62,919 bases of DNA, taken from a bacterium. Lineage in GTDB: Bacteria; Planctomycetota; Planctomycetia; Planctomycetales; Planctomycetaceae. Below, in pieces: positions 10,559-19,834 of this stretch. The stretch covers positions 1 to 62,919 of the forward strand of contig WGME01000024.1 of the NCBI GenBank assembly GCA_016125225.1, given 5' to 3'. A program made the position numbers and the translations under genes. How positions within the stretch are numbered: position 1 is the stretch's first letter; every line of letters starts with the position of its first letter. Under the pieces are notes generated by a model. The model was not told the origin of the DNA and did no database searches. It saw only the letters and a program-made list of their open reading frames with translations.

Positions 10559-10918
10559 ATGCGTATCAGCTATAGCGTTGCTCGTCACCGGTCGCACAAG
10601 CGGCTTTATCGGGAATCCAAAGGCCGCTGGGGTGCCCGCAAGAACCTCATCCGGACAGTCAAAGAGCAAGTCGTCCGCGCCCGGTGCTTTGCGTTCCGCG
10701 ATCGCCGTAACCGCAAGCGTGACTTCCGCGCTCTGTGGATCATCCGCCTGAAGGCCGCTGCCACCATGCACGGCATGCGGTATTCGGAATTCATCCACGG
10801 CCTGACGCTGGCCAACATCGAGTTGAACCGGAAGTCGCTGAGCGAGTTGGCCATTCATTCGCCGGACGTGTTTGCGGAAATCGCTGGCATCGTGAAGTCG
10901 GCGCTCGCTGCCGCGTAG
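10559..10918 (+). CDS. rplT: 50S ribosomal protein L20
   Basis: A 119-residue protein that binds 23S rRNA early in 50S assembly and in several bacteria represses this operon. I take ATG 10559 because the family start (here [22 protein letters not shown] in pattern) aligns there; the frame opens earlier without meaning. Basic N-terminal helix, [18 protein letters not shown], then the globular part [20 protein letters not shown] strong hairpin terminator follows 30 bases after the stop. Confidence 0.95.
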
Positions 10919-10949
10919 ATCTTCGGATCTCGCTGATTGCAAATCTCAC

Positions 10950-10982
10950 CAGCCCGACTGCTCATGGCAGCCGGGCTGTTTT
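10950..10982 (+). terminator. Intrinsic terminator/attenuator between rplT and pheS
   Basis: CAGCCCGACTGC (10950-10961) pairs with GCAGCCGGGCTG (10967-10978) with one mismatch, followed by TTTT. It stands 38 bases before the pheS start, so it could end the ribosomal transcript or attenuate pheS. Confidence 0.75.
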
Positions 10983-11019
10983 GCTGATATCGGTTCACTT
11001 TGCTCCAGGTGATGTTCTC

Positions 11020-12021
11020 ATGGACCCGCTGACTGCCTTGGCCCAGTTCGAATCGGAAGGTCTGGCTGCGATTGCCGCCGCCACAGACGCCGCCGCTTTG
11101 GAGCAGGTCCGCATCCAGTTTCTCGGCAAGAAGCAGGGGCGTCTTAAGGATCTGCAGTCGGTCGTCGGCAAGGCGACTCCGGAAGAACGTCCCGTCGTGG
11201 GCAAACGCTTCAACGAAGCCAAAGACCGTGTCACCGAGGCGCTTGAAGCTCGGTTGAACGAGGTGGCCAAACCTAAGATCGCCGCGACGGCGATCGATTT
11301 GACATTGCCCGGTGTCCCCACCGACTTCGGTCGTCTGCACCCTCTAACGCAGACGATGCGCGAATTCCGTGAGATCATGGCCCGCTTCGGCTTCGAAGTG
11401 GTGGATGGTCCGGAACTGGAAGATGAGCCGCACAACTTCAACGCGCTCAACATCCCGCTCGACCACCCGGCTCGCGATCCGCTCGACAACTTCTACCTGG
11501 CAGCGGCCTGCACAGCGCATGGCAAGCCGGTGCTGATGCGCAGCCAGACCAGCACGGTGCAGATTCGCGTGATGGAACACCGCCCGCCTCCGGTTCGGGT
11601 CATTTCCATCGGCCGGGTCTATCGCCCCGATGACATCGACGCCACGCATCATGTCATGTTCCATCAGATGGAAGGGCTGATGATCGGCCCCGATGTCACG
11701 ATGGCCTCACTGAAGAGCGTGCTCAAGATGTTCGCCGCGGCCTACCTGGGTGGTGATACCGAAGTCCGCTTCCGTCCCTCGTTCTTCCCGTTCACTGAAC
11801 CTTCGGTCGAGGTAGATGTGCGCTGGAAGGGGGGCTGGTTGGAACTCGGCGGGGCCGGGGTGGTTGATCCGAACGTGCTGCAGGCCGTTGGTTACAACCC
11901 CGAAGAAGTCGGGGGTTTCGCCTTCGGCCTGGGTATTGCCCGGTTCTGCATGCTGCGGCACGGCATCGATGACATCCGCCTCTTCTATCAGAACGACATT
12001 CGCTTCCTGAAGCAGTTCTGA
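11020..12021 (+). CDS. pheS: Phenylalanine-tRNA ligase alpha subunit
   Basis: A 333-residue class II aminoacyl-tRNA synthetase subunit that carries the active site of the PheS2PheT2 enzyme. I start at ATG 11020 ([14 protein letters not shown]); the upstream frame runs through rplT. N-terminal coiled coil to about residue 90; then [21 protein letters not shown], the motif 2 region ([17 protein letters not shown], then [12 protein letters not shown]) and motif 3 ([31 protein letters not shown]). All are intact. pheT, normally next, is absent here: the following gene is convergent and only 15 bases away. Confidence 0.96.
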
Positions 12022-12036
12022 GCGGCGAATGATCGA

Positions 12037-13212
12037 TCACGGAATCAGCAGCGTCGTGTAACCGGCAGTCTGCTTATTGAGAATCACCGTCAGCGCGGCG
12101 GCGGCAATTGGGATTTGTGGATCGACGGTGGAGGCCGCAAAGCCCTTGGCATTGAGCGCCTGCCCACACACAAAGAGTTCCACGCCGTGCGATTTGAGCT
12201 GTTCGATCAACTTCAGATTGGGGTTGTGATCGACGCCATAGCGGAGAGCATAAAACTCGTCTTTCAAAACCGACTTCGTGGCCTCCCCGTGAAAGACAAT
12301 CGCGATGCGCACATCGCCGCTGCTGAATCCGTGCAAGCCGTACAGGTTCAGAACCCGCGCGGCCCGCTCGAGCCCTTTGTTCACAGCGTTCGGGGACGAG
12401 TCCGCTGTGACATCAAAGACGAGTTTCATGCCGGGTTGCGGGGGTTCCACCACGCTGTCATAAGCCACCACGCCGCCATATCCCGCGATGATGGGGTATT
12501 GCCATTCGCGTAAGCCCGCGGCTTTGCTCTTGGTGAACTCCACGAAATAGTTTTCCTTGAGAACGTCGGCGGGTTCGCGGGTTTTGAGGTAGCCGGCCGC
12601 TATGATTTCGCTTTCAAAGACCTCTTGCCCGGCCCGCACATGGCCCAGCACCCAGTCGCTGCTTTCCCCGGCGACACGGCGGAAATCGATGACAATCACC
12701 CGTCCGCCTGGCTTCAAGGCCCGCTGCAACGAGGTCATTGTCTTCAGCGGGAATTCGAAATGGTGATAGGTGTCGCAGATGAAGGCGACATCGACTGATT
12801 CCGGCGGCAACTCCGTGGAGTCCGCCGTGCAGAGGACGGTTTCCACGTTCTTTAATCCGGCGGCACGGCTCGATGTTTCAATGTGCTTCAGGAAGTTTGG
12901 TGTGATATCGACGGCCAGCACGCGGCCTTCCGGTCCCACCGCTTCGGCGAACAATCGCGTGAACAATCCCGTCCCGGCACCGATATCGGCGACGGTCTGC
13001 CCCGGTTGAATCTGACACGCCGCCAGAATTTCATTGCGGCGGGTATAGACTTCGCGACTCTCGACTTCGAAGCGTTTCACGAACGCAGCCACATCCGGAT
13101 CGCGGAACGAATCGTTGACGCCGGGTTTGACGCTTTTCTCTTGTGCCATGACGGACGTGGTCACGGCCACGATGGCGATCAGAAACAGACTAAGGCGACG
13201 CAGAGACAACAT
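12037..13212 (-). CDS. Exported SAM-methyltransferase fused to a DsrE-like domain
   Basis: A 391-residue protein starting at ATG 13212 (the GTG just before it is also possible). Residues 1-24 are a signal peptide ending VMAQ. Residues about 40-240 are a class I methyltransferase: motif I VADIGAGTGLF (74-84), then VLAVDITPNFL, VDVAFICDTYHHFE, and LKPGGRVIVIDF. From about 265 to the end is a DsrE/DsrF-like sulfur-carrier fold (VNKGLERAARVLNLYG, IAIVFHGEAT, SHGVELFVCGQALNAKGF, AAALTVILNKQTAGYTTLLIP), with one Cys in FVCGQ at the usual site. It is last in the sulfide operon. An exported SAM enzyme is odd because SAM is cytoplasmic; planctomycete compartments or a lost methyl function are possible. 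Confidence 0.75.
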   Translation of the reverse strand: MLSLRRLSLFLIAIVAVTTSVMAQEKSVKPGVNDSFRDPDVAAFVKRFEVESREVYTRRNEILAACQIQPGQTVADIGAGTGLFTRLFAEAVGPEGRVLAVDITPNFLKHIETSSRAAGLKNVETVLCTADSTELPPESVDVAFICDTYHHFEFPLKTMTSLQRALKPGGRVIVIDFRRVAGESSDWVLGHVRAGQEVFESEIIAAGYLKTREPADVLKENYFVEFTKSKAAGLREWQYPIIAGYGGVVAYDSVVEPPQPGMKLVFDVTADSSPNAVNKGLERAARVLNLYGLHGFSSGDVRIAIVFHGEATKSVLKDEFYALRYGVDHNPNLKLIEQLKSHGVELFVCGQALNAKGFAASTVDPQIPIAAAALTVILNKQTAGYTTLLIP

Positions 13213-13263
13213 CACTACAGAATCCTTGTCAAAATGCCGTTCACGGACAACCCCCGAAGTCCT

Positions 13264-14457
13264 TTACGCACGCCCCTTGAGCATACCATGCCAGTACAGA
13301 ATGGGCAGCAGGTATCGCTTGAGAGCCCACATGGACCAACGCTCTTTGGATTGATCCACAGGAAAGGTTTCTTCGGGTGTCTTCTGGTAGTTGAACTCGG
13401 CGAGGACGAGTTTGCCGATCCCTGTCACCAACGGACACGATGTGTATCCGCTGTATTTTGCGGGGCAGACCTTTCCCTGCATGGCTGCCAGCAGATTTCT
13501 GGCAACGACCGGGGCCTGCTTGCGAATGGCCGCCGCGGTTTTTGATGTGGGCAGGTTACTGCAGTCTCCCAAGGCAAACACATTCGAGAACCTGGGGTGA
13601 CGCAGCGTTTCTTTGTCGACTTCCACCCATCCGTCTTTATCTGCGAGCGGGCTTTGAGCCAGGAATGTCGGCGGCCCCATCGGTGGGGTCACATGCAGGA
13701 GGTCATACTTCAGCGACACGAGTTCCTGTGTGTCGAGGTTCTTCAGCACGGCCTGCCGGGTATCGGCCTGCACTTCGATCAGTTCGTGTCGAAAACGACA
13801 GTCGATCTGCTTGCGGGCAATGACCTGTTCCAGCGTTGATCGATACGGCTCGACGGCGAAGATGCTGGAGAGTGCCGAGGCATAGATGATGTTCGTGTTC
13901 TCGCGCACTCCGGCTTCCCGGAATCGATCATCAGCCAGGTACATAATTTTCTGCGGAGCGCCGCCACATTTCACGGCTCCCGAAGGATTGGTAAAGATCG
14001 CCGTGCCTCCGCGGAAGTTGCGGATGGCTTCCCACGTCGAATCGACCGTGGCGAAGGAATAGTTGCTGCACACTCCCCCTTTGCCGACAGCATCTTTCAA
14101 ACCCTGGACCTTATCCCAGTTGATCTGCAGGCCCGCAGCCACCACCAGCCAATCGTAGGTGATGGTCTCACCAGTGTGTGTTCGCAACAGATTCTGGCTG
14201 GGGACAAATTCTGCGACGGCATCTTGAATCCAGGTGACACCACGGGGCATCACCGACGCCTCGGACCGTTCTGTCGCTTCCTTCTTAGCCAGCCCGGCTC
14301 CAACCAGGGTCCACAGCGGTTGATAGTAGTGCTTATCAGAAGGTTCGATCACTGCCACATCGGGGCGGGAGAACCAGCCTCGGGTGAGTCTCGCTGCTAC
14401 AGTGAGTCCCGCTGACCCACCACCCACAACCACAATCTGATGATGTTTGTTTGACAT
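13264..14457 (-). CDS. sqr: Sulfide:quinone oxidoreductase (type II-like)
   Basis: A 397-residue FAD enzyme that oxidises sulfide to persulfide/polysulfide and passes electrons to quinone at the membrane. ATG 14457 begins MSNKHHQIVVVGGGSAGL, an FAD-binding Rossmann motif; the long upstream frame is a shadow of tauE. Redox cysteines: Cys164 in AVKCGGAPQK and Cys341 in YTSCPLVTG, as in type II SQR; Cys130 is extra. The second FAD motif NVFALGDCSN is at about 292-301. The C-terminus has an amphipathic, Trp/Leu-rich membrane anchor (WSMWALKRYLLPILYWH). It lies 22 bases after tauE. Confidence 0.9.
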   Translation of the reverse strand: MSNKHHQIVVVGGGSAGLTVAARLTRGWFSRPDVAVIEPSDKHYYQPLWTLVGAGLAKKEATERSEASVMPRGVTWIQDAVAEFVPSQNLLRTHTGETITYDWLVVAAGLQINWDKVQGLKDAVGKGGVCSNYSFATVDSTWEAIRNFRGGTAIFTNPSGAVKCGGAPQKIMYLADDRFREAGVRENTNIIYASALSSIFAVEPYRSTLEQVIARKQIDCRFRHELIEVQADTRQAVLKNLDTQELVSLKYDLLHVTPPMGPPTFLAQSPLADKDGWVEVDKETLRHPRFSNVFALGDCSNLPTSKTAAAIRKQAPVVARNLLAAMQGKVCPAKYSGYTSCPLVTGIGKLVLAEFNYQKTPEETFPVDQSKERWSMWALKRYLLPILYWHGMLKGRA

Positions 14458-14479
14458 AATGAAACTCACTGAAAGAGGC

Positions 14480-15298
14480 TCACGTCTGAAGATTGCGTGC
14501 GATGACGAACACTGCCACCGCCAGGATGGCCACGACGAACACCTTCTGAAGGACAACCGCCGGAAGCCGACGAGCCACCTGCTGACCCACGAACAACCCA
14601 ACAACACCGCCGATGACGAACAGCCCGGTGATGGCGGGGGAAATGGTGCGGCCTGACCAGGCCTGTGCCGTGATTCCCGAAACACTCACCAGCGAAATCA
14701 CCATCAACGACGTTCCAACCGCGCGATGAATCGACATCCCGCTGAACAGGACCAACGCTGGCACAATCACAAATCCGCCGCCGACTCCGAATAAACCCGA
14801 CAACACGCCGGTCATTAATCCCACACACAGCAACAGCACGGCACAGCGCGAAGTCAGTATCAATAGACCCGTGGCATCCCGTTGACAGGTTGGGCCTTCT
14901 GCATCTCCCGTGGGACCGCAATCCACTCGGGGAACAGCAGGCCGGGAAGCCTGCCGCCAGAGCCGGATGGCCACAATGATCATCAAGGCCGCAAATGCCA
15001 GCAGCAGAACGGCATCGGAAAGTCGACTGGCAATCCATGTTCCCAGCGGTGCTCCCAGCATTCCAGCAATCGCAAAGAGCACGCCAGTCCGCAGTTCGAC
15101 TTCGCCCAGCTTCCAGCGATGCAGAAACCCCACAAACGAGGTGGCTCCGACGGCTGCCAATGAGATTGCCACGGCATCCTTGGTGGGAACATTCAGGCCA
15201 TACACCAGCAACGGCACGGCAAAGATGGCACCACCGCCACCGGTGAGCCCCAGCGATAATCCCACGATCGCACCGAAGAGCAGACTTAAGGGAGACAT
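14480..15298 (-). CDS. TauE/SafE-family membrane transporter
   Basis: A 272-residue inner-membrane protein with about eight helices arranged as two repeats: FGAIVGLSLGLTGGGGAIFAVPLL at the head is one, and MTGVLSGLFGVGGGFVIVPAL starts the second. This G-rich G-x-G-G-G motif pair is typical of TauE/SafE, thought to export sulfite, thiosulfate or related sulfur anions. ATG 15298 is chosen because GGAGGAGGG is upstream and the longer frame is inside the previous gene. In staphylococcal and other sulfide operons TauE sits between the persulfide dioxygenase and SQR, exactly as here, which suggests export of the oxidised product. Confidence 0.85.
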   Translation of the reverse strand: MSPLSLLFGAIVGLSLGLTGGGGAIFAVPLLVYGLNVPTKDAVAISLAAVGATSFVGFLHRWKLGEVELRTGVLFAIAGMLGAPLGTWIASRLSDAVLLLAFAALMIIVAIRLWRQASRPAVPRVDCGPTGDAEGPTCQRDATGLLILTSRCAVLLLCVGLMTGVLSGLFGVGGGFVIVPALVLFSGMSIHRAVGTSLMVISLVSVSGITAQAWSGRTISPAITGLFVIGGVVGLFVGQQVARRLPAVVLQKVFVVAILAVAVFVIARNLQT

Positions 15299-15326
15299 CA
15301 CAGGGCCCTCCTCCATCGACGACGTC

Positions 15327-16760
15327 TTAGCGGCTGCAACCCGTGGTACACAGGGCCGGAGCATCACCCTGGGCTTCCACCGGCAGTTGAGACGCAAGCC
15401 ACGCTTTGTATCCCCCCACCATGTCGCTCATGTTGGTCCGTCCGGCTTCGGCCAGCAGGCTGGCGGCAATCGCCGAGCGATAGCCCCCCTCGCAGTGGAC
15501 CACCACCGAACCTTCCATGGGAACTTCGGCCAGCCGTTCCGCGAGATGCGTCAGCGGAATGTTATGACTTCCCGCGAGATGTCCCGCCTGCCATTCCTTG
15601 GTTGCACGGACATCGAGCACGAAGGGTTGCTGTGATTGTGCCAAAGCCTCGGCCAAAGCCGGGGCCGTGATACGTGGCACCATGGCAATCAATTCGGGAT
15701 GCAGATCCAACGCGGCCATGCCGTCCCGGAGATAGCCGACCGCATTGTCGAAACCGATGCGTCCCAGACGCATCACGGCTTCGTCTTCCTGACCGGGTTC
15801 CGCAATCACCACGATCGGGCGGTCATGATCGAGCAGAGAACCGCACCACGTAGCATATTTGCCTTGCAAACCGATGTTGAGCGACCCCGTCAGATGAGCC
15901 GCTTCAAAATCGACGGCGTCACGCACATCGAGCAGTTGCCCACCCTGGTTCTTGATTCGCAACACTTCCTCAACCGACAAGGGCTGAAGCGATGTCTGCA
16001 ATGTGGCACCCAAATCAGCCCGTTCCTGGCGGTTCTTGATCGCATCATAAACGAAGTAGTCTGGGGCTTCTGGTTGTTCGGTTGTGACGAGTTGCTTGAA
16101 TTCCTCAAGGCTCATCGGTTGCAGGGCGTAGTTGAATTTCTTCTGCTCGCCGATCGTGGAGACGGTCTCTTTGCTCAAATTCTTGCCACACATCGACCCG
16201 GCCCCATGTGCCGGATAGACCAGCGTGCTATCGGGCAGGTCGCGCAGCTTCTGCAGTGAGTGGTACAGCATCTCGGCGAGTTCGTCGGCCGTGACGCCGA
16301 TCGAAGCCAGTAGATCGGGACGGCCAACATCACCAATGAAGAGCGTGTCCCCCGTCAATACGGCGTGAGGAATGGAATCGCTCTGGGCGAGGTCGTAGAC
16401 GACCACCGAAATGCCTTCGGGTGTGTGACCCGGTGTTTCGAGGAATTCCAACCGGACATCGCCCAGTTCAATACGGTCACCATCGTGCATGGCCTGGAAG
16501 TCGAACTCGGCCTGGGCTCGCGAACCCATGACGATGCGAGCCTGCGCCCGATTCCGCAATTCGATGTGACCGGCCAGAAAGTCGGCATGAAAGTGGGTCA
16601 GCACGACATAGTCGATGTGATACCCCGCCGCATCGGCGTCTTGCAGGTATTGTTCGATATCGCGTTGCGGATCGACCACGACGGCTCGCTGCGTGCGTTC
16701 ATCCGCAATCAGATACGACGCATGTGCGAGGCAACCCAGATAGTACTGCTTGATGAACAT
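15327..16760 (-). CDS. Persulfide dioxygenase-rhodanese fusion (CstB-like)
   Basis: A 477-residue three-domain enzyme. Residues 1-235: metallo-beta-lactamase/ETHE1-like non-heme iron dioxygenase (THFHADFLAGH 55-65, PGHTPEG 110-116, GDTLFIGDVGRPDL 137-150, YPAHGAGSMCGKN 182-194), which turns glutathione or low-molecular-weight persulfide into sulfite. Residues 258-355: a rhodanese fold without catalytic Cys (IAEPGQED at 319-326), a pseudo-domain. Residues 365-460: an active rhodanese with Cys423 in VHCEGGYRS. This order matches staphylococcal CstB. The tail ends ALCTTGCSR, two free cysteines that the family does not require. Gene order and spacing (42 and 28 bases to neighbours) mark it as an operon member. 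Confidence 0.88.
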   Translation of the reverse strand: MFIKQYYLGCLAHASYLIADERTQRAVVVDPQRDIEQYLQDADAAGYHIDYVVLTHFHADFLAGHIELRNRAQARIVMGSRAQAEFDFQAMHDGDRIELGDVRLEFLETPGHTPEGISVVVYDLAQSDSIPHAVLTGDTLFIGDVGRPDLLASIGVTADELAEMLYHSLQKLRDLPDSTLVYPAHGAGSMCGKNLSKETVSTIGEQKKFNYALQPMSLEEFKQLVTTEQPEAPDYFVYDAIKNRQERADLGATLQTSLQPLSVEEVLRIKNQGGQLLDVRDAVDFEAAHLTGSLNIGLQGKYATWCGSLLDHDRPIVVIAEPGQEDEAVMRLGRIGFDNAVGYLRDGMAALDLHPELIAMVPRITAPALAEALAQSQQPFVLDVRATKEWQAGHLAGSHNIPLTHLAERLAEVPMEGSVVVHCEGGYRSAIAASLLAEAGRTNMSDMVGGYKAWLASQLPVEAQGDAPALCTTGCSR

Positions 16761-16802
16761 GATGTGCTCCTCATGAACGGTTTCAGTGTTTTACCAGCGA
16801 CA

Positions 16803-17402
16803 TTACGAATGACAGCAGGATGTGGGAGCGTTGGTGGCACAGGTCGCTGTCGAGGAATTTGCGGTCGGAGTTTTCGGCACCTGGTTCCAAGGCATCCGGG
16901 CGAGCAGCATGCCCATGCCGCAGGTGTCGGTGATTCCGGCAAAGACTAGCCCCGCACCCACAAAGGCCGATAGCCCGATGAAGTACGGATGGACGAACGC
17001 TCCCAAGGCAGCCCCGATCAGCACCAGAGATCCCGCTGCGATTCGCACCTGCCGTTCGAGCGAGATGGCTTTCTTCCCGCGGACCACCGGCAACCCGGCC
17101 TGATCCCAGGCGAGCGTGCCCCCTTCGACATTCACCACATTGGTGTAACCGGCCGCCTGAATTTTTTCGCAGGCCTGCTTACCCCGACTACCCGAGCGAC
17201 AGATGACATACAGTGGCGACCCGGCCGGATCGCGACCCGCCGTCAACTGGGCCGGATTCAACTGGTCCAAAGGCACATTGCGGGCACAGCCAACGTGGAT
17301 TTCTCGGTATTCCACGGGCGTGCGGACATCGACCAGTTCGATGGTCTCGCCGCTTTGAATTCGATCAAAGAGTTGTTTCGGGGCAATGGTGGTCATGGAC
17401 AT
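16803..17402 (-). CDS. Rhodanese with DUF2892 membrane domain (YgaP-like)
   Basis: A 199-residue sulfurtransferase anchored to the membrane. Rhodanese domain at 5-108 with ELVDVRTPVEY and Cys68 in the loop CRSGSR; DUF2892 domain at 112-170 with two helices (LVLIGAALGAFVHPYFIGLSAFVGAGL) and CGMGMLLARMPWN. ATG 17402 has AGGAGA upstream. The tail after 180 is Thr/Ala-rich and holds three cysteines, ending SCCHS; this is unusual and resembles the Cys tail of the next gene product. First structural gene of the sulfide operon after arsR; it likely accepts sulfane sulfur from SQR or passes it to the dioxygenase. Confidence 0.85.
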   Translation of the reverse strand: MSMTTIAPKQLFDRIQSGETIELVDVRTPVEYREIHVGCARNVPLDQLNPAQLTAGRDPAGSPLYVICRSGSRGKQACEKIQAAGYTNVVNVEGGTLAWDQAGLPVVRGKKAISLERQVRIAAGSLVLIGAALGAFVHPYFIGLSAFVGAGLVFAGITDTCGMGMLLARMPWNQVPKTPTANSSTATCATNAPTSCCHS

Positions 17403-17461
17403 GATGGTCTCCTGTTCGTTGAATCCAGGCATCTCGGATGCGAGGCAGTTATCTTGTTAGT

Positions 17462-17475
17462 TCGGAATATTCCGA
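17462..17475. promoter_or_regulatory. ArsR operator 2 (TCGGAATATTCCGA)
   Basis: A perfect 14-bp palindrome 60 bases before the rhodanese start and inside the arsR-rhodanese gap. It keeps the six-base half-sites of the copy in the arsR promoter (TCGGAA-N2-TTCCGA), so both are probably bound by the ArsR protein encoded beside them. Confidence 0.75.
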
Positions 17476-17495
17476 TCTTTCTGGCGTACAAAAAT

Positions 17496-17801
17496 CTAGG
17501 TCGTGGCGGTATCAAACCGCGATTCGATGCAACGCAAAATTCCGGCCAAATGGGGTTCGGTTACTCGGTAATACACCTGTCGTCCCCGCTTGTCGCTCGT
17601 CAAAAATCCGCAACGCTGCATCAAACGCAGGTGTTCGGAAGTCATTGCCGTGGGCAAATCACAGGCTTCCGCGAGTTCACCCACGGTGTATTCCCCGGAA
17701 AGCAGCAGTTGAATGATCCGCAGGCGGTGGGCGTGAGCGAGCACCCGCAAGCATTCCGCTGCTTGGCTTAAGGCGTCGAGGCTGGTTAAGCGAGGAGACA
17801 T
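17496..17801 (-). CDS. ArsR-family repressor of the sulfide operon
   Basis: A 101-residue winged-helix repressor: LAHAHRLRIIQLLLSGEYTVGELAEACDLP, then MTSEHLRLMQRCGFLTSDKRGRQVYYRV, a complete ArsR domain. Cysteines are at 17, 47, 64 and 91. Persulfide sensors of the BigR/SqrR type use a Cys in the second helix and another near the C-terminus; the equivalent residues here appear to be Gln31 and Asp97 (alignment by eye), so the sensing pair must differ. It is transcribed with the sulfide genes and has matching operators in its own promoter and before the next gene, so it should be autoregulated. Confidence 0.9.
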   Translation of the reverse strand: MSPRLTSLDALSQAAECLRVLAHAHRLRIIQLLLSGEYTVGELAEACDLPTAMTSEHLRLMQRCGFLTSDKRGRQVYYRVTEPHLAGILRCIESRFDTATT

Positions 17802-17833
17802 GGTTGAGAATCTTTCTGTGAGCTACGTACTCA

Positions 17834-17861
17834 AATATATCGGAAGTTTCCGACATGTCAA
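17834..17861 (-). promoter_or_regulatory. arsR promoter with operator 1 in the spacer
   Basis: On the minus strand TTGACA (17856-17861) and TATATT (17834-17839) are 16 bases apart, a near-consensus sigma-70 promoter. Most of the spacer is the 14-bp inverted repeat TCGGAAACTTCCGA (17840-17853), so a bound repressor would block polymerase directly. The arsR ATG is 33 bases further on. Confidence 0.8.
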
Positions 17862-17936: not shown

Positions 17937-19811
17937 TCAGTCGAGATAGACGAATTCCTGGGAATTGAAGATCGCCAAGGCGGCGTCGGTCCAGGCGGCA
18001 TCTGCGGTTTCTGTGCTCTGCTGCTGATGGACGAACTGCAACAGACGAGCTACTTCCGCATCACTTGGCGAGCGGGACAGTACCGCTCGATAGAGATGCA
18101 CAGCCCGACCGGCATCGTCGGCAGTCCGATCAAGAAGAGTTGCCGCCAATGCCGTTGCGGCGGCATGCGTCAACTCGCCATTCAACAAGGCCAATGCTTG
18201 CGGGGCTGTGGTGGATCGCCCGCGGAGGGGGCAACTGGCATTGGCATCGGGCCGGTCAAAGGCTTCAAACAGCGGATACCGCAGGTTCCGGCGGGCAAAG
18301 AGATAAATGCTGCGGCGGGTGTGATCGGCGGCGTTTTCACTCGTCACCCATTGGCCTTTCAGCAAGGTCTGCACGAGTTCTTCGGGCAGCGGCGGACGCA
18401 CGCCGTGACCACCACGGTCATCATTGAACTGACTGCTCGCCATAAGCAACGCATCCCGCAACTGCTCCCCATCGAGCCGCCGGAGCAGGCCGCGACTCAA
18501 AAATTCCCCCGCCGGATCGAGTTGCAACCGACGATCCCAATCGGTATCCCCCGGCAACCGCCGAGCTGTTTGACGATAAGTCGCCGAGAGGACTATCTGC
18601 CGATGCAGGGCTTTTAGACTCCACCCCTGTTCGATCAATTCGCAGGCCAGCCAGTCGAGCAGTTCGGGATGCGTCGGGCCAAGGTTGATCACACCGAAGT
18701 CGCTGCCGGTGGCGCAGAGACCGCGTTGAAAATGCTGCTGCCAGAGACGGTTCACGATCACCCGGGCCGTCAACGGGGTGGAACCATCGACCAACTGCCG
18801 GGCGAATTGCAGACGGCGTTGTCCTGGATCAGAACTAGTGCTTGATACCGATGAATCCGCAATGGCGATACGCGGCAGTGCCGCCTCGATGGTTGGCCCC
18901 GGCCGTCGGTGATCGCCCCGAATCCAGATCCGCGCTGGTGACGTATTCGTTGGTGGCGTGAGGCGAAAGGAATAGTACGGGGCATCGCGTTTGAGGGACG
19001 GGACAGCCGGCTCGAACACGGCCCGCAGCCGATAGAAATCAGCTTGGCTGATCGGATCGTACTTGTGATCGTGGCACTCCGCACAACCGATTTGCAGGCC
19101 GAGGAAGACCGCCCCCACGGTGCCGGTCAGTTCGTTCAATCGGAAGTGACGGCGTTCCAACTGATCGTTGACGTCGGGCATATCCGGGCCCGCGAGGCAG
19201 AACGTAGTCGGAACCATGACCGGTGGTTCGAGTTGGTCTCCCGCGAGTTGCTGGACCACGAAGTCGGAATAGGGCAGATCGCGGTTGAACGCTGCAATCA
19301 CCCAGTCGCGATACTGCCAGGCATCGGGACGGACTTTGTCGTGTTCAAAACCGTCAGTCTCGGCGAAGCGGGCCAGATCGAGCCAGTGCTGAGCCATCCG
19401 CTCGCCATAGGCCGGAGAAGCCAGCAACCGATCAACCACACGCTCGATGGCATTGGGTGTCGTGTCGGCCAGAAAGTCATCTAATTCTTCAGCTGTCGGA
19501 GGAAATCCGGTCAGGTCAAAGGTCACCCGACGCAAGAAGGTGGGCCGCTCGGCTTCGGGTGCGAGGCCGAGTTGCTTGGTTGATAATTGCTCCAGAATGA
19601 AGGCATCAATAGGTGAGCGGATGGGTGATGGCATCGAGACCTCAGGCACCGTCGGCTTCAATAACGGCCGAAAGGCCCAATGGTCGCGATCATCGGCCGT
19701 CACCGGGACTTCGGAGATGGCATTCGTCGGGACATCATCCTCTGACGTGGCGATCAATGGCCATACGATCGCAGAACAAACTACCAGCAGCAGGGCACGC
19801 CGAACAATCAT
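17937..19811 (-). CDS. DUF1549/DUF1553 (PSCyt2/PSD1) exported cytochrome-like protein
   Basis: A 624-residue secreted protein of the large planctomycete family with DUF1549 then DUF1553. ATG 19811 has AAAGGA upstream; the signal peptide runs to about residue 23. DUF1549 is at about 65-270 (SPIDAFILEQL, FLRRVTFDLTGFPPT, YGERMAQHWLDLARFAETDGF, DRDLPYSDFVVQQLAGD) and ends with a CxxCH haem-type motif, GCAECHDHKYDP, near residue 250. DUF1553 occupies the last 280 residues (TARVIVNRLWQQHFGRG-like, QTARRLPG, FEAFDRPDANASCP). The partner DUF1501 gene follows in the same operon. Thought to take part in extracellular polysaccharide use; function not established. Confidence 0.92.
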   Translation of the reverse strand: MIVRRALLLVVCSAIVWPLIATSEDDVPTNAISEVPVTADDRDHWAFRPLLKPTVPEVSMPSPIRSPIDAFILEQLSTKQLGLAPEAERPTFLRRVTFDLTGFPPTAEELDDFLADTTPNAIERVVDRLLASPAYGERMAQHWLDLARFAETDGFEHDKVRPDAWQYRDWVIAAFNRDLPYSDFVVQQLAGDQLEPPVMVPTTFCLAGPDMPDVNDQLERRHFRLNELTGTVGAVFLGLQIGCAECHDHKYDPISQADFYRLRAVFEPAVPSLKRDAPYYSFRLTPPTNTSPARIWIRGDHRRPGPTIEAALPRIAIADSSVSSTSSDPGQRRLQFARQLVDGSTPLTARVIVNRLWQQHFQRGLCATGSDFGVINLGPTHPELLDWLACELIEQGWSLKALHRQIVLSATYRQTARRLPGDTDWDRRLQLDPAGEFLSRGLLRRLDGEQLRDALLMASSQFNDDRGGHGVRPPLPEELVQTLLKGQWVTSENAADHTRRSIYLFARRNLRYPLFEAFDRPDANASCPLRGRSTTAPQALALLNGELTHAAATALAATLLDRTADDAGRAVHLYRAVLSRSPSDAEVARLLQFVHQQQSTETADAAWTDAALAIFNSQEFVYLD

Positions 19812-19834
19812 CAAGCGGTCCTTTCTGCGAGGTC

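Follow-up and report, generated by a model that had tools for sequence, protein, structure and literature searches.

Two described bacterial systems stand close to the operon reported here. The bigR operon of Xylella and Agrobacterium is outlined in PMC5823870 as bigR, blh and a gene for a TauE-related transporter, with the repressor positioned at the −10 region, and the cst genes of Staphylococcus aureus that are named in PMC5480029 (tauE, cstA, cstB and sqr) are placed there under the control of CstR. According to the account in PMC12423496, the characterised ArsR sensors of sulfane sulfur share one cysteine pair, while many ArsR proteins encoded beside sulfur genes lack that pair and may work otherwise. 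Here we describe a six-gene operon in a 62,919-nucleotide contig of a bacterium of the family Planctomycetaceae (WGME01000024.1, assembly GCA_016125225.1; this whole stretch is referred to as the window), whose regulator belongs to a large and coherent group of pair-less ArsR proteins for which an operator and a regulon are predicted and four cysteines are candidates. Because the group has all three, the question of alternative sensing becomes directly testable. No published account of the regulon was found among the matches listed in a literature search that covered titles and abstract openings, with thin coverage of subscription journals.

The six genes all lie on the minus strand, from 17801 to 12037, with a gap of 93 base pairs (bp) between arsR and the rhodanese gene and intergenic gaps of 22–51 bp from the rhodanese gene onward. 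Pfam and NCBIfam agree with the gene content, the shared strand and the short gaps described in an initial annotation of the window. We consider it probable that this is an autoregulated sulfide/persulfide detoxification operon, in which an ArsR repressor is released by reactive sulfur and a second operator, O2, serves as a roadblock. The features concerned are the following:

17834–17861, minus strand: operator O1 in the arsR promoter (−35 TTGACA at 17856–17861; operator TCGGAAACTTCCGA at 17840–17853; −10 TATATT at 17834–17839)
17496–17801, minus strand: ArsR-family repressor of 101 amino acids with a helix-turn-helix (Pfam and NCBIfam)
17490–17494, minus strand: T5 tract just past the arsR stop, 14 bp before O2
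17462–17475, minus strand: operator O2 TCGGAATATTCCGA, between arsR and the rhodanese gene, 20 bp past the arsR stop
16803–17402, minus strand: rhodanese with a YgaP-like transmembrane part (Pfam/NCBIfam; start picked by ribosome-binding site)
15327–16760, minus strand: CstB-like protein with a metallo-beta-lactamase and two rhodanese domains (Pfam/NCBIfam)
14480–15298, minus strand: TauE/SafE-type exporter (Pfam/NCBIfam)
13264–14457, minus strand: sulfide:quinone oxidoreductase (SQR; Pfam/NCBIfam; match to mitochondrial SQOR)
12037–13212, minus strand: UbiE-like methyltransferase fused to a DsrE domain (Pfam/NCBIfam)

Like the bigR operon, the locus combines an ArsR-fold repressor at the promoter with a sulfurtransferase-dioxygenase and a TauE protein. 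In contrast to BigR, which senses via Cys42 and Cys108, the planctomycete ArsR has neither cysteine, and where the bigR operon encodes Blh, a DUF442-ETHE1 protein, the planctomycete protein is of the CstB type; the account in PMC5823870 names no SQR, methyltransferase-DsrE protein or second operator. The CstB-type domain order, TauE and SQR are shared with the cst genes as presented in PMC5480029, among which, as the initial annotation had said, the methyltransferase-DsrE fusion has no named counterpart. The regulator of cst is the CsoR-like CstR, whereas the planctomycete regulator carries the Pfam ArsR helix-turn-helix, also as annotated. CstA is a multidomain protein, and none of the six genes has its domain make-up; the methyltransferase-DsrE protein and the membrane rhodanese are extra here. 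The operon is thus not cst by its predicted regulator, and we expect it by analogy to function as the bigR and cst systems do.

Operator O1 fills the 16-bp spacer between TTGACA and TATATT. In its exact form, TCGGAA-N2-TTCCGA, the palindrome was correctly placed by the initial annotation at 17840–17853 and 17462–17475, and the pattern occurs nowhere else in the whole genome (6,353,456 bases, 42 contigs), where a reversed-pattern control gave no match. As a definition of the operator, the 14-bp palindrome proved too narrow. It is not specific on its own among relatives, because it is found in 55 of 99 genomes (the window's own and 98 relatives), commonly one to four times, and it lies upstream of arsR in exact form at 21 of 108 loci. 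The conserved predicted operator is looser, and the palindrome is one version of it: TCGnnAnnTnnCGA (TCG-N2-A-N2-T-N2-CGA) precedes 99 of the 108 related arsR genes, compared with 25 of 6,010 control 200-bp windows of the same loci. Before further repeat removal, it was upstream at 102 of 111 loci (0.68 expected), and the logo of these 102 reads aAAa.ACT.ATTGACATgTCGgaA.aTTcCGATATAtTtga, with the operator in the spacer of a standard promoter. Both promoter hexamers match at four or more of six positions in the O1 register at 94 of 100 O1 sites (0.06% of random positions).

These loci were assembled from two sets. The first comprised 100 regions around CstB-like or methyltransferase-DsrE matches, annotated with the window's proteins, and contained 45 ArsR genes over the score limit (the window's included). 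The second was picked on ArsR sequence alone, as the best 80 of 350 matches with one genome per species; its genomes are nearly all titled planctomycetes, apart from one Candidatus Dadabacteria and two labelled only 'bacterium'. Removal of repeated loci reduced the total from 125 to 112 and then 109, and loci with less than 120 bp upstream or downstream were left out. Dropping loci with less than 3 kb downstream or already in the first set left 46 of the 80 ArsR-chosen loci (L192, L198 and L255 were later recognised as repeats), and 43 of the 46 have sulfur genes: rhodanese in 43, CstB-like in 30, TauE in 20, DsrE in 13, methyltransferase in 9 and SQR in 6. Five of the 30 CstB-like rows are weak (33–52 bits) and are probably other rhodanese proteins, for example reductase-rhodanese fusions. 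An operator-bearing operon filed under Candidatus Dadabacteria (L211) reflects either a binning error or a transfer.

The doubling of the operator seen in the window is conserved. Within 120 bp past the arsR stop, exact TCGnnAnnTnnCGA is present at 47 of 107 loci (0.36 expected), and 37 of the remaining 60 have a second site with a single mismatch, compared with ~6% for resampled sequence. The surroundings of this second site differ from those of the first: the logo of 49 O2 sites has a T tract before the operator and an additional TATCGA-like half-site downstream of it, with neither a clear −35 nor a clear −10. Among 79 loci with both sites, 56 have a tract of five or more T, and 52 of these tracts precede O2 by 10 or 11 bp. 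At L093, L119 and L206, for example, O2 follows a T7–T8 tract at a near-fixed interval and is itself followed by a third TATCGA-like half-site. The window differs from these relatives in its short tract (T5, 14 bp from O2), and a third half-site is not evident. The differing flanks, together with the looser operator and a four-cysteine set particular to this regulator, go beyond what the initial annotation had recorded.

With regard to mechanism, a dimeric ArsR repressor would bind TCGnnAnnTnnCGA, and we infer that ArsR is the binder because arsR is adjacent and residues 52–53 of the protein covary with the operator. Bound at O1, within the −35/−10 spacer, the repressor would block RNA polymerase; bound at O2, it would most likely stop polymerase that has leaked through arsR, and O2 may in this way be a roadblock separating arsR from the enzyme genes. 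Low-level reading of arsR would be possible while the enzyme genes are off. Rising reactive sulfur species would then modify the ArsR cysteines, ArsR would leave both sites, and the rhodanese, the CstB-like dioxygenase, the exporter, SQR and the methyltransferase-DsrE protein would be made. Release by sulfur is suggested because of the gene content and the way in which BigR and SqrR work, as described in PMC5823870 and PMC12423496.

Other explanations for O2 were weighed against the roadblock. O2 could instead be a promoter in its own right, repressed by ArsR and serving the enzyme genes, which we judge rather unlikely; in its favour, the T-rich tract lies near the place of an UP element and the operator is of the same type as O1. 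In the O1 register, the only one covered by the test, both hexamers match at four or more of six positions at just 4 of 84 O2 sites in the sense direction, compared with 94 of 100 O1 sites, and a conserved C occupies position 6 of the would-be −10. The antisense direction gave 15 of 84, and O2 was rejected as a promoter in either orientation within that register. The T tract past arsR could also be an intrinsic terminator with O2 incidental to it, given that 58 of 107 loci have six or more T within 60 bp of the stop and 25 of these 58 lack an exact O2; this is improbable, as the 40 nucleotides preceding the tract form weaker structures than other arsR windows do (mean −7.7 versus −9.8 kcal/mol) and the distance from tract to O2 is near constant while that from stop to O2 varies. 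Cooperation of O1 and O2 by DNA looping would suit two operators 368–502 bp apart, as in the 79 loci, but their spacing has no helical phasing (R 0.14, p 0.20 at 10.5 bp; p ≥ 0.14 at four other periods from 10.2 to 11.0 bp), and we regard it as the most improbable of the alternatives.

The regulator itself has the ArsR-family fold (PF01022, 37.6 bits; NF033788, 80.6 bits), and its predicted model (predicted local distance difference test, 89.5) finds SmtB and CzrA as the nearest Foldseek matches, with further matches to HlyU, SqrR, BigR and the Escherichia coli structure 3cuo. The cysteine pair of BigR and SqrR is absent, as the initial annotation had suspected: in a profile alignment to BigR (3pqj), the alpha2 cysteine aligns to Q31 and the C-terminal cysteine to D97, so sensing cysteines must lie elsewhere. 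C17, C47, C64 and C91 are therefore the candidates, and in the model C17 lies in alpha1, C47 at the end of alpha3, C64 after alpha4 and C91 in alpha5. All four are kept at 107 of 109 loci, the two exceptions lacking C64 alone, and all four also recur in eight ArsR matches from previously unsearched genomes. Two peptide patterns were used to pick the second set, and the conservation of C17 is partly built in because one of them contains it; C47, C64 and C91 are in neither. Against the NCBIfam BigR equivalog, the regulator scores 48.3 bits where 155 are required, and no protein exceeds this cutoff in the 149 genomes; the cutoff is strict, since 14 control genomes were also without a match. The missing cysteine pair and the NCBIfam score both place the predicted regulator outside the BigR/SqrR sensor group.

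The recognition helix begins with residues 52–53, which covary with the operator core half-sites: GA half-sites account for 82 of 164 with AM, HM, PM or GM and for 0 of 36 with N52 or V53 (p 5e-10). A degenerate tetrapeptide in alpha4 is reported to set operator specificity in the ArsR family (PMC10509353). The regulator resembles the sensors SqrR, SoxR, sHdrR, YgaV and HlyU in its ArsR fold and its predicted sulfur target genes; those proteins, as described in PMC12423496 and PMC8960804, share an alpha2 cysteine and an alpha5 or C-terminal cysteine, whereas the planctomycete protein has Q31 and D97 at the pair positions and four other conserved cysteines. RexT of Nostoc, which is likewise of ArsR fold with non-metal cysteines, is described in PMC8960804 with vicinal Cys40–Cys41 and a binding site ATTCG-N15-CGAAT.

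An alternative is that this thiol-rich protein senses a metal or metalloid and has sulfur genes under its control only incidentally, since metals and sulfide interact in the cell. Four conserved cysteines in an ArsR-family protein could bind a soft metal, C64 seems to match a ligand cysteine of CmtR, and the NCBIfam metalloregulator subfamily model, though broad, is matched at 80.6 against a 55-bit cutoff. The classical motifs, as given in PMC8960804, are nevertheless broken: in place of the alpha5 zinc motif D-x-H-x10-H-x2-E there is E82-x-H84-x10-R95, with R95 replacing the second histidine, and where alpha3 would carry CxC there is T39-V40-G41 (placed by our own alignment), although other cysteine-based metal sites are possible. 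The genes recognised at the operator sites are sulfur enzymes, no search having been made for metal genes, and we consider a metal sensor unlikely. A broader proposal goes beyond the release of ArsR by reactive sulfur in this operon: these planctomycete proteins would form a class of reactive-sulfur sensors with cysteines non-homologous to the BigR/SqrR pair, a spacer operator and a promoterless roadblock operator behind their own gene, so that repressor is made while the enzymes stay off. We offer this tentatively, at slightly less than an even chance.

Persulfide dioxygenase-rhodanese genes are reported as widespread in the Planctomycetes bins of PMC7887784, and CstB-like proteins were found in 75 of 149 genomes (own included; the 94 matches comprise the window's own, 82 in the first 80 fetched regions, 3 in later ones and 8 outside the sample). 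Searching relatives for the site, as the initial annotation had proposed, recovered it in generalised form, both upstream of arsR and as a promoter-linked pattern. The promoter-plus-operator pattern TTGACAnnTCGnnAnnTnnCGATA has 71 sites in 53 of the 149 genomes, with none for the reversed control. An intact ArsR lies within 400 bp at 56 sites. The first feature after 14 more is another operon gene or an ArsR remnant, and for the last, on a short contig, no gene was recognised, such that 70 of 71 precede arsR, an arsR remnant or sulfur genes. The genome of the window has two other matches to TCGnnAnnTnnCGATAT. Of 294 genomes drawn from the phylum, 18 had sites (control 0), and in previously unsearched genomes all nine further sites precede ArsR (8) or a rhodanese gene (1), four of the nine being from one genus already sampled by two earlier genomes. 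The operator thereby offers a means to predict the sulfide/persulfide regulon in many planctomycetes.

Some units lack a complete arsR. Eight without arsR or a remnant begin with a rhodanese gene (4), SQR (2) or the methyltransferase-DsrE gene (2) and have one operator each, no second site being present in their leaders; in L325, an unidentified gene lies between the operator site and SQR. A probable arsR remnant is present in six further units, all of which retain O1 and an O2-like site carrying no more than one mismatch: L098 and L317 were recognised by weak matches, L163 and L323 by eye, and L153 and L164 indirectly. In all six, arsR seems to have decayed or to have lost an internal part, the helix-turn-helix being missing from L098 and L317; these two, L163 and L323 are the clearer cases, and L153 and L164 are less clear. 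Retention of the operators beside a decayed arsR looks as if another ArsR acts in trans. With caution, O2 appears to accompany an arsR that lies, or has lain, between the promoter and the enzyme genes.

Several observations weigh against the reading of an ArsR-controlled sulfur operon with a roadblock. Nine of the 108 arsR genes have no upstream operator (L148, L168, L197, L205, L227, L232, L233, L250 and L254), although L168, L227 and L250 still have TCG-N8-CGA, and three of the 46 ArsR-chosen loci are without a recognised sulfur gene (L232, L247 and L271); L148, from the first set, also has none downstream of arsR. The strict promoter-plus-operator pattern is absent from 96 of the 149 relatives, and it belongs mainly to the window's own class, since only 5 of 273 genomes from other classes of the phylum have sites. 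The 56 ArsR-linked sites are partly circular because many of the genomes in which they were counted had also contributed to the pattern, and the covariation figure for residues 52–53 ignores relatedness. In two of the single-operator units, L324 and L325, a coding frame contains a match with a single mismatch, and the remnant call for L153 and L164 partly rests on the O2-like site itself. The roadblock is read from the position of O2, whose promoter test was confined to the O1 register, and the T tract is nearer to O2 than expected for the active site of a polymerase stopped there.

The enzyme genes fit a sulfide/persulfide function. The CstB-like protein can be aligned from one end to the other with 3tp9 (337.7 bits) and with 3r2u (211.3 bits), the latter of which we take to be CstB. 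Its first rhodanese domain has no evident active-site cysteine by eye, and the last carries one in HCEGGYRS; with the metallo-beta-lactamase domain, this is the make-up of a CstB-type persulfide dioxygenase-sulfurtransferase, the activities being predicted. Its NCBIfam Blh score in the profile search is 50.2 (cutoff 625). SQR matches mitochondrial SQOR chains over its full length (439.3 bits, 1.6e-130), and VKCGGAPQ and YTSCPLVTG align to VKCAGAPQ and YTSCPLVTG of SQOR, segments that presumably hold the redox cysteines, which by homology makes it a predicted SQR of mitochondrial SQOR type. Against the NCBIfam type III selenoprotein model it scores 233.8, under the cutoff of 525. The TauE/SafE-type exporter is a putative sulfite or thiosulfate efflux protein.

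The operator also ties to the sulfide/persulfide regulon an apparently exported methyltransferase-DsrE protein of unknown function. Judged by eye rather than with a predictor, its N-terminus resembles a signal peptide that ends at VMA-QEK, and a hydrophobic N-terminus ending before a conserved Q was seen by eye in all 22 fusions examined (window included), in at least 90% of which C146 of the methyltransferase and C349 of DsrE are conserved. The methyltransferase is of the S-adenosylmethionine type, with an intact GAGTG motif. As a query, the protein matches 136 of the 149 genomes; among the matches listed, only 18 (the window's included) span both domains in one alignment. Elsewhere the halves fall in separate alignments in one longer frame or in separate genes, and many of the matches are other methyltransferases. 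In the relatives L095, L143, L183 and L186, an extra ~150–185 residues lie between the two domains; scans of L095, L143 and L186 gave no Pfam match for this stretch at 1e-5.

The window's own genome also encodes an orphan ArsR paralogue (L321:6869–7174, contig C26) of 101 codons with 70% identity and the four cysteines; it has no TCGnnAnnTnnCGA upstream in 11 kb, and no operon-type match was noticed nearby, its neighbours not having been run against Pfam. A megablast search of 72,556 plasmid records returned no match. Upstream of the operon, on the same strand, is a DUF1549/DUF1553 (PSCyt2/PSD1) gene at 17937–19814, and a pheS-like frame, recognised by eye, at 10735–12021 converges on the operon from the opposite side. 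Near operons of relatives, pyridine nucleotide-disulfide reductase-rhodanese fusions of ~550 amino acids (CoADR-RHD or Npsr type) were found at L151:6811–8481 and L185:7785–9434, and weak matches in several other loci resemble reductase-rhodanese fusions.

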